From NCBI RefSeq assembly GCF_000316625.1, contig NC_019676.1:1351001-1415000 (forward strand): 64,000 nt of DNA, given 5' to 3'. The position numbers and the translations under genes were made by a program. Position 1 is the first letter of the stretch. Each line of letters begins with the position of its first letter. Source of the DNA: Nostoc sp. PCC 7107 (GTDB lineage Bacteria > Cyanobacteriota > Cyanobacteriia > Cyanobacteriales > Nostocaceae). Under the pieces are notes generated by a model that was not told where the DNA came from, searched no databases, and worked only from the letters and a program-made list of their open reading frames with translations. Shown here piece after piece: positions 50,384-56,547 of this stretch.

Positions 50384-50773
50384 TCATGTCCACATTCGGT
50401 GAACATTAGTATAAGCATCAAATTTTGTATCCCTACTAACGATAATTAAGGAGTGATTAACCGCCTGTGCGATTAGCATCCGATCAAATGGATCACCATG
50501 ATGTAGCGGAAGATTACAGACTAAAACTGTATCATCAAACGAGATTCCCAATATGAGAATATCTGAAGCTTCAATTGCAGAACCTATAGTTTCATAGCTG
50601 CTTTGCAATGATAATTTGCCAAGTTTTAATTTGATAGCAATTTCCCAAAGACTAGCTATGCTTAGATAAACCACATCTGCGTTATCAATTATCGCCCTCA
50701 GATCATCTCTAAGGTTAGAGTCATTTTCAGTCAGCCAGATAAAGGCATGAGTATCTAACAGAAAATTACTCAT
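50384..50773 (-). CDS. PIN-domain toxin (VapC-like)
   Basis: 129 residues. PIN acidic residues Asp7 (FLLDTHAF), the Glu of SLWEIAIK, Asp in HHGDPFDRML and Asp in VSRDTKF. A ribonuclease toxin by family. Overlaps its antitoxin gene at ATGA (50770-50773). Confidence 0.9.
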   Translation of the reverse strand: MSNFLLDTHAFIWLTENDSNLRDDLRAIIDNADVVYLSIASLWEIAIKLKLGKLSLQSSYETIGSAIEASDILILGISFDDTVLVCNLPLHHGDPFDRMLIAQAVNHSLIIVSRDTKFDAYTNVHRMWT

Positions 50774-51000
50774 TCCATATATTCCTGAAAATCTGAGAGA
50801 GGTTCATCAAAATCATCCGGTAAAGGTAAAATAAAAGTGCCTTTTAAGATGCCAGAACGGCGCTTTTTTCGTAATGAACTGTCCTGAGAACTAGTTTTTG
50901 AATAATTCTCAACTAAATATTTGGCATAATGCAAGAGTTCTTGTTTTAGTGGCTCTGGCATTTGCTCTAGTGTTTGTAAAATTTCTGTATCAACAGTCAT
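50770..51000 (-). CDS. DUF2281-type antitoxin
   Basis: 76 residues: LEQMPEPLKQELLHYAKYLVENY then a basic linker and GTFILPLPDDFDEPLSDFQEY, the DUF2281 pattern usual upstream of PIN toxins. Coupled translation with the toxin. Confidence 0.85.
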   Translation of the reverse strand: MTVDTEILQTLEQMPEPLKQELLHYAKYLVENYSKTSSQDSSLRKKRRSGILKGTFILPLPDDFDEPLSDFQEYME

Positions 51001-51330: not shown

Positions 51331-52335
51331 ATGAGTACAGCAAATATTACGCCAGCGCTACGTGTGGGAGTATTAGGTTTCGGTGGACTCGGACAAGCAG
51401 CCGCCAAGGTACTTGCTGGTAAACGAGAAATGACTTTAGTCGCAGTGGCAGATCAAAAAGGTTACGCCTACGCTGCTGAAGGTTTAAATTTTCAAGAAAA
51501 CATTGCCGCTTATCAGTCTCAAGGTTCAGTAGGTTATTTAGAACCAGTTGGTACATTAACCAACAATAGTATTCAAGATTTAATCGATAGCGCCCAACCT
51601 GTAGACGGGTATTTTTTAGCTTTACCCAACCTACCCAATGACTTTATTCCATCTGTAGCCAGACAGTTTATTCAATCTGGTTGGCGTGGTGTGTTAGTCG
51701 ATGCAATCAAGCGCACCAGTGCGGTAGAACAGCTAATTGCCATGAAAGCAGAACTGCAAGCAGCAGGTATTACCTACATGACAGGCTGTGGTGCAACACC
51801 AGGACTCTTAACCGCTGCTGCGGCTTTAGCAGCCCAAAGCTATGCCGAAATTCACAAAGTAGAAATTACCTTTGGTGTAGGTATTGCCAACTGGGAAGCT
51901 TACCGCGCCACCGTGAGGGAAGATATTGGTCATATGCCTGGTTATACCGTAGAAGTTGCGCGGGCAATGACTGATGCAGAGGTAGAAACATTATTAGATA
52001 AAACAAACGGCGTGCTTACCTTAGAGAACATGGAACACGCTGATGATGTGATGTTAGAGTTAGCCGGAATTGTATCACGCGATCGCGTGACTGTAGGTGG
52101 TGTAGTTGATACCCGCAATCCCAAAAAACCTCTCAGCACCAACGTTAAAGTTACTGGGCGCACCTTTGAAGGTAAGATTTCCACCCATACCTTTACATTA
52201 GGAGATGAAACTAGCATGGCAGCAAACGTCTGCGGCCCTGCTTTTGGTTATCTCAAAGCTGGTATGCAACTACATCAACGTGGCATTTACGGCATATTCA
52301 CCGCTGCCGAAATCATGCCTCAATTTGTGAAATAA
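51331..52335 (+). CDS. Saccharopine dehydrogenase-like oxidoreductase
   Basis: 334 residues from ATG 51331 ([10 protein letters not shown]). Rossmann motif [17 protein letters not shown], then [15 protein letters not shown] and [20 protein letters not shown]. Annotated in cyanobacteria as saccharopine-dehydrogenase-like, but lysine metabolism is not implied. The true substrate is unknown. NAD(P)-dependent, cytosolic. Confidence 0.78.
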
Positions 52336-52349
52336 GCGACTAGAGGTAT

Positions 52350-52468
52350 CCCTGTCAAGGTAGATAAAAATTCTCCGAAACTTACCATATCTCTTTTCTC
52401 TGTGTCTTTTTTAGTTAAATAAATAGCGGATAGAGAAACAAGAGATGTTTCGAGTTACCTTGACAGGG
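52350..52468. mobile_element. MITE-like element upstream of the CHAT-NACHT gene
   Basis: 119 bp with perfect 13-bp inverted ends CCCTGTCAAGGTA (52350-52362) and TACCTTGACAGGG (52456-52468), non-coding inside. Target duplication not clear. Confidence 0.6.
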
Positions 52469-52523
52469 CTAATGATCGCACTTACAAAAGACTTGACACA
52501 GAAGCAATTCGAGAAGTTGTTCA

Positions 52524-52546
52524 TGTTATAAGCCGGCGTTATAACA
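52524..52546. promoter_or_regulatory. Inverted repeat, possible operator
   Basis: TGTTATAA (52524-52531) and TTATAACA (52539-52546), perfect 8-bp arms, spacer GCCGGCG, 46 bp before the predicted start of the CHAT-NACHT gene. Could bind a dimeric regulator. Confidence 0.4.
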
Positions 52547-52591
52547 CCGCAGATATCTGGTAAGTTGTGCGCCTCAAAGGAGATTCAGAAC

Positions 52592-55516
52592 TTGGCTCAA
52601 CCAGAAGAAAATCTTCAAAGTAGTTCATACAAAACAATTTTAGTGTTAGCATCCAGCCCAACAAATGGAGCTAGATTACGCCTAGATCAAGAAGTGCGAG
52701 AAATTGATGCGGGTTTGCGAAGATCGCAGCACAGAGACAAGTTTAATTTGCAGACAAAATGGGCAGTTACTCCTGATTCTTTGCGTCGTGCTTTGTTGGA
52801 GTTTAATCCAGAGATTGTTCACTTTTGTGGGCATGGTTCAGAAGATGATGGATTATTTCTGGAAAATGATGCAGGGTTAACACAACTTGTCCCAACAGAA
52901 GCCTTAGCAAACTTATTTAAACGATTTGCTCCACGAGGGTTAGAGTGTGTTGTTCTCAACGCTTGTTATTCTGAGATTCAAGCAGATGCGATCGCGGAAC
53001 ACATCGATTATGTAATTGGGATGAATAACAAAATTGGAGACAATGCAGCGATTAAGTTTGCAGTTGGTTTTTATGATGAATTAGGTGCTGGGTGGTCGTA
53101 TGAAGATGCTTATCATGGTGGTTGTGATGCGATCGCATTGCAAGGAATAACAGAGGAACATACCCCAGAATTCAAAAATATCAAAAAAAAGGCCCAATTA
53201 AAGGCACAAAATCCGGTTGATGACTTAGTGCAGCAAGTGCGTCACCGTCTCCACGATGATATTCAAAGTTCGCATGGTGTCATGCCTTTATGGGGAATAG
53301 ACCGTTTGGTTTCTTTAGGTGATTTATTTGTAGATGTGAATATCCTGGAGTCACTCAGCAACAACCACAGGTCGGAACTAGATGATTTATGGCAGGATTT
53401 TACAAAGGGTAATTTTAGCGATCGCAGTTTAGAACGAATTGGTTTGGGTAGACAACAGCAACGCATATCAGGGTTAGCTGTGCTGGAACGGAATACAAAT
53501 TTGATGGTAGTGGGTAAACCTGGTTCGGGGAAAACGACATATTTGCAAAGAATCGTCACCGAATGCAATGATGGCAAACTACAACCACAGCGAATTCCCG
53601 TATTGATTAAACTGCGGTATTTTGTAGACGATGGAAATAAGTATGGATATAATTTAGAGCCGTTTTTGGCACACCTTTGGCGGTTGAGTGATGCAGACGT
53701 TGAATTGATCCTCCGTCAAGGAAGAGCCTTGGTATTGCTGGATGGCTTGGATGAAGTAACAGGAGAAGCAGCAAAGCAAATCGCCAAAACAATTAAGCGT
53801 TTCGCCCGTATTTATCCGCAGGTGCAAGTAGTGGTGACTTGTCGTACACAAACCCTACCAGACTTATTCGATTGGAAATCACAACACTTCACCTGTGTAG
53901 AAGTGGCAGATTTTAATGAGGAGCAGGTAAGAGCATTTGCAGCGCATTGGTTTGAGATAGTGTGTACTGATGCAGAGGAAGAAAAGACGAAAACGCGCGA
54001 ATTTTTAGAAAAGTTGTTTCTAGAGGAAAACAAAACAATTCGAGAACTGGCGATTACGCCAATTTTGCTGAGTTTGACTTGTGCAGTCTTCCATCAAACA
54101 AGGAAATTTTACTTCAAGCGTTCCAAGTTATATGAAGAAGGGTTGGAATTACTCTTAGAAAAGTGGGATCAATCGCGCTCAATTGAGAGAGATGAGATTT
54201 ATCGAGATTTATCTGTGGAACGTAAGTTAGAGCTTTTAAGCTTTTTAGCAGTGAAAAAGTTTGTGCAGCAGCAGTATGTATTGTTTGAGCAGGAGGAGTT
54301 AGAAGGGTATATCGGAGAGTTTTTGGGAATTGAACAAAGGGAAAGTCGAGGAGTTTTAAAAGCAATTGAGTCTCAGCATGGCTTGTTGATTGAAAGAGCG
54401 CAGAAGGTGTGGTCATTTTCACACCTAACTTTTCAAGAATATCTTGTTTCAGAAGTGTTGACCCGGAACTATGAACCTGTAAATTTAACTACTCAAAAAA
54501 CATCAGCTAACATCTCACAGTATATAACTGAAAAGCATTGGAGAGAGGTTTGTTTAATGACAGCAGAGAAGTTAGAAGATCCATTCAACTTTCTCATAGA
54601 TATACAAACCAAGACAAATGAATTTCTTAAATCAGATGAAGATATACAAAGTTATATGCAATGGGTTTATGACAAATCTAATTCTATCGGAATGCCCAAT
54701 ATATTGGTAGCGTTAAGGGCATTTTATTTTGCCTTTTCAAAAACATATCAATGTGAGTGTGTAAAAGATTATGAGTATGATTTTGTAATGATTTATGACG
54801 GCTTACCCTACAATATATATTCATATAATTATGATAGAACACCATACTTTATAGAACTCCAAACTTTTGCTATGGAATCATCTATCTCTTTTTGGCTTTC
54901 ACTATATCTTGGACTGAATCTAGAGGTTAGAGGTGGAACAAATGATAGGAATTCAATATTTGGAATATCATATTCATTAAAATCCAAAGATGATCTACAA
55001 CAAGTTAAGATTGATCTTTGTGTGAAATATGTTATGGATATAGTTGAAAATTTATCTCAAGGCCGTGTTATTGGCGGGTCTGATGAATACAGTGGACTAT
55101 ATTTTTTTCATTCTGACTTAAAGTCTATAATTGAAGATATATGTGAGCTTGATTTTGGTTCAGAAACAGCCGAACTGATGAAAATTAATGAGCAAATTCC
55201 AAAAGAAATACATGGTGTGTCTGGCAGAGAAAAAAAAGAAAAACGAGAATTATTAAGAATTTTTTGGCGAGAAAATGGCAAGAGTGTGCTTAAAAAACTA
55301 CGAGAAGTATTTATTAAGAGTCGTCAGATTGGATATGATTGGCAGTTTAATGATATCCGAACAAAAAAACTTGAACAATACTATTCTTTCAACAAACTTC
55401 TTTTAGATTGCTTGAGTCAAAGCGAGATTGACTTAGATAAGAAAAAGACAATTGAGGGAGGGCTTTTACTCCCGAACGCTGAAATTGAAAAACGCAACCG
55501 CGAAACAGCCGAATAA
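52592..55516 (+). CDS. CHAT-NACHT protein (caspase-like protease plus STAND NTPase)
   Basis: 974 residues from TTG 52592, chosen because AAAGGAG lies 9 bases before. The longer TTG 52565 has no ribosome site. CHAT protease at about 15-185: His81 in IVHFCGHG and Cys125 in VVLNACYS. NACHT domain from about 305: GKPGSGKTT (308-316) and LVLLDGLDEV, ending near WSFSHLTFQEYL. The last ~340 residues are AT-rich, repeat-free and unrecognised, probably the sensor. Architecture of bacterial NLR-like defence proteins: sensing, oligomerisation, then proteolysis. Role here is inference. Confidence 0.88.
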   Translation: MAQPEENLQSSSYKTILVLASSPTNGARLRLDQEVREIDAGLRRSQHRDKFNLQTKWAVTPDSLRRALLEFNPEIVHFCGHGSEDDGLFLENDAGLTQLVPTEALANLFKRFAPRGLECVVLNACYSEIQADAIAEHIDYVIGMNNKIGDNAAIKFAVGFYDELGAGWSYEDAYHGGCDAIALQGITEEHTPEFKNIKKKAQLKAQNPVDDLVQQVRHRLHDDIQSSHGVMPLWGIDRLVSLGDLFVDVNILESLSNNHRSELDDLWQDFTKGNFSDRSLERIGLGRQQQRISGLAVLERNTNLMVVGKPGSGKTTYLQRIVTECNDGKLQPQRIPVLIKLRYFVDDGNKYGYNLEPFLAHLWRLSDADVELILRQGRALVLLDGLDEVTGEAAKQIAKTIKRFARIYPQVQVVVTCRTQTLPDLFDWKSQHFTCVEVADFNEEQVRAFAAHWFEIVCTDAEEEKTKTREFLEKLFLEENKTIRELAITPILLSLTCAVFHQTRKFYFKRSKLYEEGLELLLEKWDQSRSIERDEIYRDLSVERKLELLSFLAVKKFVQQQYVLFEQEELEGYIGEFLGIEQRESRGVLKAIESQHGLLIERAQKVWSFSHLTFQEYLVSEVLTRNYEPVNLTTQKTSANISQYITEKHWREVCLMTAEKLEDPFNFLIDIQTKTNEFLKSDEDIQSYMQWVYDKSNSIGMPNILVALRAFYFAFSKTYQCECVKDYEYDFVMIYDGLPYNIYSYNYDRTPYFIELQTFAMESSISFWLSLYLGLNLEVRGGTNDRNSIFGISYSLKSKDDLQQVKIDLCVKYVMDIVENLSQGRVIGGSDEYSGLYFFHSDLKSIIEDICELDFGSETAELMKINEQIPKEIHGVSGREKKEKRELLRIFWRENGKSVLKKLREVFIKSRQIGYDWQFNDIRTKKLEQYYSFNKLLLDCLSQSEIDLDKKKTIEGGLLLPNAEIEKRNRETAE

Positions 55517-55536
55517 AACATTTTATGGCAATCAGA

Positions 55537-55927
55537 TCAAGCTGACTGATTCTCCTCTAAGGAAGCATCATAAGCAGCGACTTCTGCATCTAATTCCTGT
55601 CGATATGCAGCAATATTTTCGACAAAATCATCAAAAAGCGGATCATCTTGGAAAACACCTGCAAACTTTATCCAAGGATTGGATTCTGCTGATGGAATTT
55701 CCTCTGACTTTCTCATCTTTTTCGAGAGCATATCTGTAATTCGTGCTTGCAGGGCTGGATCTGATACTTCAGCCACAATCTCTTTCAAAAAAGCTAGATA
55801 CTTCCTCTGATAACAATTTCTGTTTTTCTTCTGATTGCATAGCATTGAAAATTGAAGACTTAATAATTTCAAGAGATGTATCTCTGTCATTATTAATTCT
55901 AATATCTCCTAGAAGAAACAACTTCAC
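55537..55927 (-). pseudogene. Frameshifted unknown (antitoxin-like) gene
   Basis: From GTG 55927 one frame reads VKLFLLGDIRINNDRDTSLE... to SEEVSSF. At a run of six T the coding sense moves to the next frame, LKEIVAEVSDPALQARITDM... to the TGA at 55537. Removing one T joins them smoothly. The C-terminal part (WIKFAGVFQDDPLFDDF) resembles cyanobacterial antitoxin tails. The C-terminal frame alone (to 55890) is open. Convergent with the CHAT-NACHT gene, 20 bp apart. Confidence 0.5.
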
Positions 55928-55989
55928 AGCAATACTATAATTTTAATTGATTATCAGCCTCGGCTGTCATACCTTGTACTGTTAAAACT

Positions 55990-56547
55990 CTATTCCCTCG
56001 CCTCTAGCCCCTCTTCCACTCTTCGTTCCTCTTCCAATAGCAAATATGATGTTTGCATCACAAATGGTAATTCTGCACCGATAAGACCTCGTTGAATGCG
56101 TTCTGATGTTTCACTAAACACGACAAACAACGGATATATAGTATTCGCCCCTTCACTTAAAACATGATTATGGCGAGGAGGCATTAACCATTCATAGTCT
56201 TGATCTAACCACACCTGCGTTTGTCGCCAACGTCCCAACAAATCAGAAAAATCTTCATGGGGACGGTGAATAAATATTAAAATTTCCGCTCCAGTTTTAA
56301 TTTTCCATTCTGGATCGCACATTAAAATTGCTACATCACAGGGTAGACAAATAGCTTGGGGAACCTCGGAAACAGTTTTACGCAGACGAACAATAGGTAG
56401 AGGAATAGTAATTACGCTTTCATCGGGGCGACGCAAACTAGGAATCATTTCTAGGTATGGTCGGTGTTGTTTGAGGAGAGCGATCGCCGCTTGATGATTA
56501 CTGTACTCTGCCAAGCTGGCTTCGTAATGAGATTGTTGTACAGGCAT
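55990..56547 (-). CDS. Unknown cyanobacterial-type protein
   Basis: 185 residues from ATG 56547 (MPVQQSHYEAS). Features: VPQAICLPCDVAILMCDPEWK, DLLGRWRQTQVWLDQDYEWLMPP, ELPFVMQTSYLLLEEER. No motif I can assign, no membrane helix. It lies downstream of pilC, separated by a repeat (56587-56603), so it need not belong to the pilus operon. Confidence 0.6.
   Translation of the reverse strand: MPVQQSHYEASLAEYSNHQAAIALLKQHRPYLEMIPSLRRPDESVITIPLPIVRLRKTVSEVPQAICLPCDVAILMCDPEWKIKTGAEILIFIHRPHEDFSDLLGRWRQTQVWLDQDYEWLMPPRHNHVLSEGANTIYPLFVVFSETSERIQRGLIGAELPFVMQTSYLLLEEERRVEEGLEARE

Follow-up and report, generated by a model that had tools for sequence, protein, structure and literature searches.

What kind of protein is encoded by a Nostoc sp. 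PCC 7107 gene that joins a caspase-like protease to a NACHT ATPase, and how did the two come to share a reading frame? The gene lies in a 64,000-nt stretch of contig NC_019676.1 (hereafter the window) and starts at a TTG with AAGGAG a short distance before it, with the same frame extended upstream to a TTG at 52565 by the ORF-listing program (Table 1). The protein has a CHAT protease domain with a caspase-like fold (residues 32–173; Pfam, 1.6e-8; PADLOC ‘chat’, 8e-18), in which His and Cys occupy HxxGH(G) and NAC motifs; His81 falls within HFCGHG and Cys125 within LNAC, and in an alignment with 8tl0, a SAVED-CHAT protease of solved structure, this dyad coincides with the HFIGHG and LNAC motifs. 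A NACHT domain (residues 304–455; Pfam, 4e-19) with a Walker A-type GKPGSGKTT and a Walker B-type LLDGLDEV sits between this N-terminal effector and a putative C-terminal sensor, the layout of bacterial NACHT (NLR-related) STAND receptors. The AF2 model (mean pLDDT, 72) comprises CHAT at residues 14–182, the NACHT module up to about residue 627, confident helices up to 717, a stretch mostly of pLDDT <50 at 718–831, and then helices to the C-terminus. Its best PDB matches were NLRC4, NOD2, and NLRP3 over the NACHT part, and its CHAT part matched the SAVED-CHAT filament. An NCBIfam search of the protein returned no equivalog, with a match to EruA far under its cut-off. The first-pass annotation, made from the letters alone, had proposed the protease and ATPase in one frame, the His81/Cys125 dyad, and the NLR-type architecture, all of which are borne out by the domain searches, the motif alignment with 8tl0, and the model.

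Table 1. Features of the CHAT-NACHT gene and its surroundings, in window coordinates (a dot marks features given without a strand)
Feature	Position	Strand	Remarks
Accessory insertion between bioU and an ORF beside pilC	52347..55990	.	Present in 2/11 and absent from 7/11 genomes of the genus
Inverted repeat, 16-nt arms (52347-52362 / 52456-52471)	52347..52471	.	Left end of the insertion
Shine-Dalgarno-like AAAGGAGA	52576..52583	+	Upstream of TTG 52592, by sequence
CHAT-NACHT-variable helical-NCH2 protein	52592..55516	+	974 aa, TTG start
CHAT caspase-like protease domain	52631..53137	+	Residues ~14-182 in the model; dyad His81 + Cys125
A8-G tract, codons 198-200 (AAA AAA AAG)	53183..53191	+	Holds the in-frame heptamer A_AAA_AAG
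NACHT module from VDDLVQQVR (residue 209)	53216..54400	+	Walker A-type motif from 308, Walker B-type from 382
End of NACHT module and conserved helical repeats	54401..54748	+	Residues ~604-719, modelled confidently by AF2
Hypervariable AT-rich putative sensor segment	54749..55231	+	Residues ~720-880; mostly low model confidence
NCH2, NACHT C-terminal helical domain 2	55175..55474	+	Residues 862-961
117-aa ORF, probable remnant inside the insertion	55537..55890	-	Weak partial DUF7380 match (9e-5, below cut-off)

The gene is part of an insertion between bioU, which ends at 52335, and the pil gene cluster. Elsewhere in the genus, seven genomes have the bioU flank next to window positions 55985–56005, directly or within about 120 bp, which identifies the segment from 52347 to ~55990 as inserted DNA; in the closest genome lacking it (BioU 99% identical), the two flanks lie 8 bp apart. 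The one relative with the insertion at the identical place was the MAG Nostoc sp. TH1S01 (G164), while two of the 11 genomes surveyed could not be judged. The accessory setting that had been suggested is thus confirmed by the absence of the segment between the same flanks. Of the MITE-like element and inverted repeat described upstream of the gene, the repeat stands and its start coincides with the left edge of the insertion, but the MITE was rejected as the 263-bp region upstream of the gene occurs once in this genome (arm motif CCCTGTCAAGGTA found only there) where a MITE should be multi-copy. What had been described as a frameshifted gene downstream is instead the reverse-strand ORF with the DUF7380 match. 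Beside bioU, on the reverse strand at 50384–51000, a PIN-domain toxin-like ORF (50384–50773) and a small ORF immediately upstream of it are probably a toxin-antitoxin pair; sequence similar to the PIN-ORF region also adjoins bioU in genome G163.

The C-terminal part of the protein had been called unrecognised, which holds in part, since residues 862–961 belong to the NCH2 family (PF22727, 3.3e-21; 75.7 bits, with the cut-off at 27). A domain search of the window protein found no TPR, WD40, or LRR, as had been stated, and residues 608–974 modelled alone were all-helical (pLDDT, 64) with no meaningful PDB match (best Foldseek E, 0.66). Across homologues mostly 60–90% identical over NACHT, identity fell to 0–15% at residues 721–880 and partly returned within NCH2, while dN/dS between two same-locus orthologues was 0.15–0.24 to residue 720, 0.77 at 720–880, and 0.49 at 880–975. 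By these two measures the protein has the variable C-terminal segment typical of NLR-related receptors behind a conserved NACHT, as the first-pass annotation had supposed, and residues ~720–880 carry the signature of a diversifying recognition segment that is a putative sensor. The DNA of the last third is indeed more AT-rich, with GC dropping from 0.41–0.44 to 0.30–0.35 from about 54350 onward in a profile along the gene. The recent sensor swap that had been read from this composition is, however, not supported, since the last third was AT-rich in 13/13 homologues compared (22–40% GC against 37–55% in most upstream bins) and a family-wide property is no evidence of a local or recent exchange.

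The best relatives match the window protein in two frames, CHAT in frame 0 and the receptor in frame −1, overlapping at residues 192–201, where the window gene holds an A-run that the first-pass annotation had passed over. In most relatives CHAT and NACHT switch frame at the position of this tract. In about 20 of them CHAT ends at a run of 8–10 A's with a stop about 10 nt further on (CTA AAA AAA AAG TCC AAT TAA) and the receptor resumes at −1 (GTC CAA TTA ...), whereas the window junction (ATC AAA AAA AAG GCC CAA TTA) has one net extra base, which places its NACHT in frame with CHAT. The −1 relation was observed at L073, L074, L075, L076, L078, L080, L082, L083, L084, L089, L090, L092, L095, L100, and L119–L122, the last four from four other families of the order, and in L160 and L172 (two Nostoc C057 plasmids), so that annotated plasmids are among the carriers. 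The phase was the same with A-runs of 8, 9, and 10 (L119, L120, and L160 with edge substitutions) because substitutions at the edge alter the run and not the frame.

In-frame alleles were scattered (the window, L077, L079, L081, L088, and L090_6175), and on the CHAT tree five of these tips had −1 sisters (window/L073, L077/L078, L081/L082, L090_6175/L095, and L088/L080), a pattern of repeated fusion. Four alleles were at +1 (L086, L091, L093, and L094), with the partner broken in all four, and some −1 loci also had a broken partner (L074, L078, L083, and L120). Among loci with an intact partner, 15 were at −1, five in frame, and none at +1 (Fisher p = 0.008, for loci that are not independent). 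When the slip motif AAAAAAAAGNCCNATTA was searched for as a pattern outside the clade, no new partner appeared among the other matches inspected; these either carried the motif in frame by chance or were degenerate or decayed versions of this junction. Several junctions have further peculiarities. An identical A9 junction occurs on plasmids of Tolypothrix PCC 7712, Tolypothrix PCC 7601, and Fremyella NIES-3275 (L159, L185, and L186), with CHAT intact and a decayed NACHT broken by a stop 16 codons past the slip. The split-locus NACHT frame at L196:6420–11105 (G104) is interrupted by an insertion that carries an ORF of 423 aa, with the remaining C-terminus on its far side, and at L085:2996–4597 (G026) an A9-tract CHAT runs on in the zero frame into an FGE-sulfatase-like domain, the slip not being used.

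Selection on the −1 frame suggests that it is translated, probably into protein joined to CHAT, as far as codon-level comparisons can tell. The NACHT frames of split loci had dN/dS of 0.09–0.20, similar to their CHATs, and most intact NACHT-type −1 frames ran for 668–776 codons without a stop. At codons 8–30 past the slip, upstream of the first ATG, pooled w was 0.15 for the −1 reading, compared with 0.94 for the shifted one (from pairs that are not independent), and at codons 0–10 codon-level constraint was absent (w = 1.42). No ATG, GTG, or TTG occurs in the first 55 or 74 codons of the −1 frame at SAVED loci or in the first 28–29 codons at NB-ARC loci, so far downstream that independent initiation could not make complete modules of these types; NACHT-type −1 frames hold a TTG or GTG 11–15 codons past the slip, where the reference annotation starts NACHT and where re-initiation is thus possible. 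The relatives therefore combine an in-phase A_AAA_AAG with a −1 open frame under selection, as expected of dnaX-type programmed −1 frameshifting. Stimulators of the dnaX type are missing, as z-scores for a downstream RNA stimulator were near 0 for most loci, with no conserved or shared stem, and no well-spaced Shine-Dalgarno upstream of the slip site was seen by eye. Polymerases, too, tend to slip on A9 runs, and the bare A-run appears to fit the addition of one A during transcription as well as it fits ribosomal −1 slippage.

Three receptor modules were found behind the same slip site: NACHT-NCH2 at most loci, NB-ARC-EAD10-GUN4 (L122, and L120, where it is cut short), and SAVED (7e-39; at −1 in L092 and L095, in frame in L090_6175). 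At L092 a PADLOC cyclase (2e-204) lies directly downstream of the SAVED frame, the adjoining of cyclase and SAVED effector expected of CBASS, and this CHAT-SAVED therefore looks like a CBASS effector; a close homologue of the L092 cyclase follows the fused gene at L090. These CBASS-type loci (L092:2944–5813, L095, and L090:4602–7472) consist of CHAT with an A9 slip, SAVED at −1, and a cyclase (shown for L092), with the L090 pair hard-fused in frame by A10. Most slippery CHATs also carry an N-terminal EAD, the zero-frame ORF usually being EAD10-CHAT or EAD8-CHAT, whereas the CHATs of the window and L073 are without one. Relatives also encode NACHT proteins that bear these EADs and no CHAT (L021, L027, L029, and L031). 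A search for EAD10 found none in the window’s genome, G164, or G163 and recovered it in G104, G185, and G190. One contig of G104 (G104:C59, with L195 and L196) encodes about ten EAD10 proteins in ~33 kb, in the forms NACHT-HEAT-NCC-H, NB-ARC-TPR, NB-ARC, WD40, NACHT-NCH2, and EAD10-CHAT/slip/NACHT, the last being an EAD10-CHAT slip locus; this island looks like a network of receptors built around a single slippery CHAT.

We consider it likely that the window gene encodes a single-chain, NLR-related defence receptor from a clade in which the CHAT-receptor junction was ancestrally recoded. Phase variation would account for the same A-run by replication slippage at a contingency tract, A9 being OFF (CHAT only) and A10 or A7 ON (fusion), with no recoding. 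Run lengths of 7–10 and the A9/A10 differences between sister loci (L077/L078, L081/L082, and L090_6175/L095) are what it predicts, although homopolymer runs are indel-prone and some of these differences may be ordinary mutation. A tract drifting at random should also reach +1 as often as −1, which the intact partners contradict, and the low dN/dS and long stop-free −1 frames argue against long OFF states. The separately deposited Tolypothrix and Fremyella plasmid records, all three of them A9, argue against fast switching as well as against sequencing error, and we regard phase variation as unlikely.

Alternatively, CHAT and the receptor could be two proteins from overlapping genes that meet in a non-covalent complex, the receptor being re-initiated after the CHAT stop. 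The TTG or GTG of NACHT-type loci lies about 22 nt or more past that stop and is already used as a start by the reference annotation. The SAVED and NB-ARC receptors have the same arrangement with no start for 28–74 codons, however, no Shine-Dalgarno was seen at the TTG/GTG codons, the NACHT module was N-terminally fused to something in the other loci examined, and hard fusions arose repeatedly, all of which make independent translation improbable. By far the least credible account treats the split loci as pseudogenes or homopolymer sequencing errors and the intact window gene as the normal state: homopolymers are error-prone and some partners are truncated, but a shared phase in about 20 loci from five families, in complete genomes and plasmids, and in long −1 frames at w of 0.09–0.20 would be difficult to obtain by decay or misreading.

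Under the favoured reading of a recoded junction, the zero frame of the ancestral arrangement would stop just after CHAT and release a free effector, usually EAD-CHAT, and slippage to −1 on the A-run, whether by the ribosome or through one A added in transcription, would join CHAT to an interchangeable receptor module (NACHT-NCH2, NB-ARC-EAD10-GUN4, or a CBASS SAVED). As most slippery CHATs carry an N-terminal EAD, normal decoding would yield free EAD-CHAT and slippage the receptor-tethered form, and we infer that both products are made. The window copy would be an EAD-less, hard-fused derivative, its fusion made without slippage, such that slippage at its remaining A8 would yield CHAT alone. 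In such a receptor, residues ~720–880 with NCH2 may sense an invader-derived or invader-altered ligand, NACHT would bind ATP and oligomerise, and the clustered CHAT proteases would switch on and cleave cell proteins in an abortive-infection type of response. A more tentative extension, which we hold with more doubt than belief, is that slippage acts as a ratio switch: a mostly free EAD-CHAT executioner would be shared by many EAD-bearing NLR-like receptors, a minority of CHAT-tethered receptor would possibly nucleate activation, and the slip would set the stoichiometry of effector to sensor, while lineages without an EAD network, such as that of the window, would have lost the EAD and locked the fusion in frame.

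Among known systems, the bNACHT antiphage proteins (bNACHT25, PMC12169576) share with the window gene the effector-NACHT-C-terminal sensor layout, helical NCH-family domains, and an accessory location. The window protein, a putative defence receptor, differs in having CHAT rather than a PD-(D/E)XK nuclease and NCH2 rather than NCH1, and in its relatives the effector is separated from NACHT by a −1 slip site. The SAVED-CHAT protease, a type III CRISPR effector (PMC11417357), can be aligned with the window protein in CHAT fold and dyad (8tl0; phmmer, 9e-15; Foldseek, 6e-9), and CHAT-SAVED is also one partner type of the clade, although the sensor of the window protein is NACHT-NCH2. In 8tl0, CHAT is at the C-terminal end of a single frame (residues 289–457 of 496), whereas in L092 and L095 it precedes SAVED, joined across the −1 frame beside a CBASS cyclase. 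The heptamer A_AAA_AAG is the slip site of E. coli dnaX (PMC5009743), and two products per mRNA would be expected here as there; the window allele has the dnaX polarity (slip to the short product), and in its relatives the slip would lead to the long product, with no downstream hairpin detected and with interchangeable modules behind it.

The EAD-based conflict systems (PMC8195603) are matched by the EAD10 and EAD8 of the slippery CHATs and by the EAD-capped STAND sensors of relatives, which in G104 share a contig with a slippery CHAT, and are unlike the window protein in that it has no EAD and that no EAD10 was found in its genome. The EAD principle (PMC8195603) would allow EAD-bearing receptors to recruit free EAD-CHAT, and by this analogy it may serve receptors other than its own; no description of recoding to make free and tethered effector was found in that paper. 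A literature search of partial coverage found no frameshifting described in CHAT, NACHT, or caspase-like bacterial genes, and the slip-joined CHAT-receptor arrangement is provisionally new for such receptors. Bacterial NLR-like and CBASS proteins have so far been regarded either as one chain or as the products of separate genes. If the reading is correct, CHAT and NACHT genes annotated as separate would often be one receptor, and the ratio of effector to sensor in bacterial immunity would become open to direct testing. Killing by EAD receptors that lack CHAT would then be explained by free EAD-CHAT. A ligand search has a defined target in the hypervariable segment.

The slippery CHAT also occurs in larger contexts. 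At L090:9971–12982 and L160:730–5061, a large protein of several domains (annotated in L160 as a metallophosphoesterase) ends in a slippery CHAT with NACHT at −1, and on the reverse strand of L120:7088–9133 (G288) the zero-frame ORF has an apparent second CHAT-like domain (HFIGHG ... LQACEGG) ahead of EAD10-CHAT.
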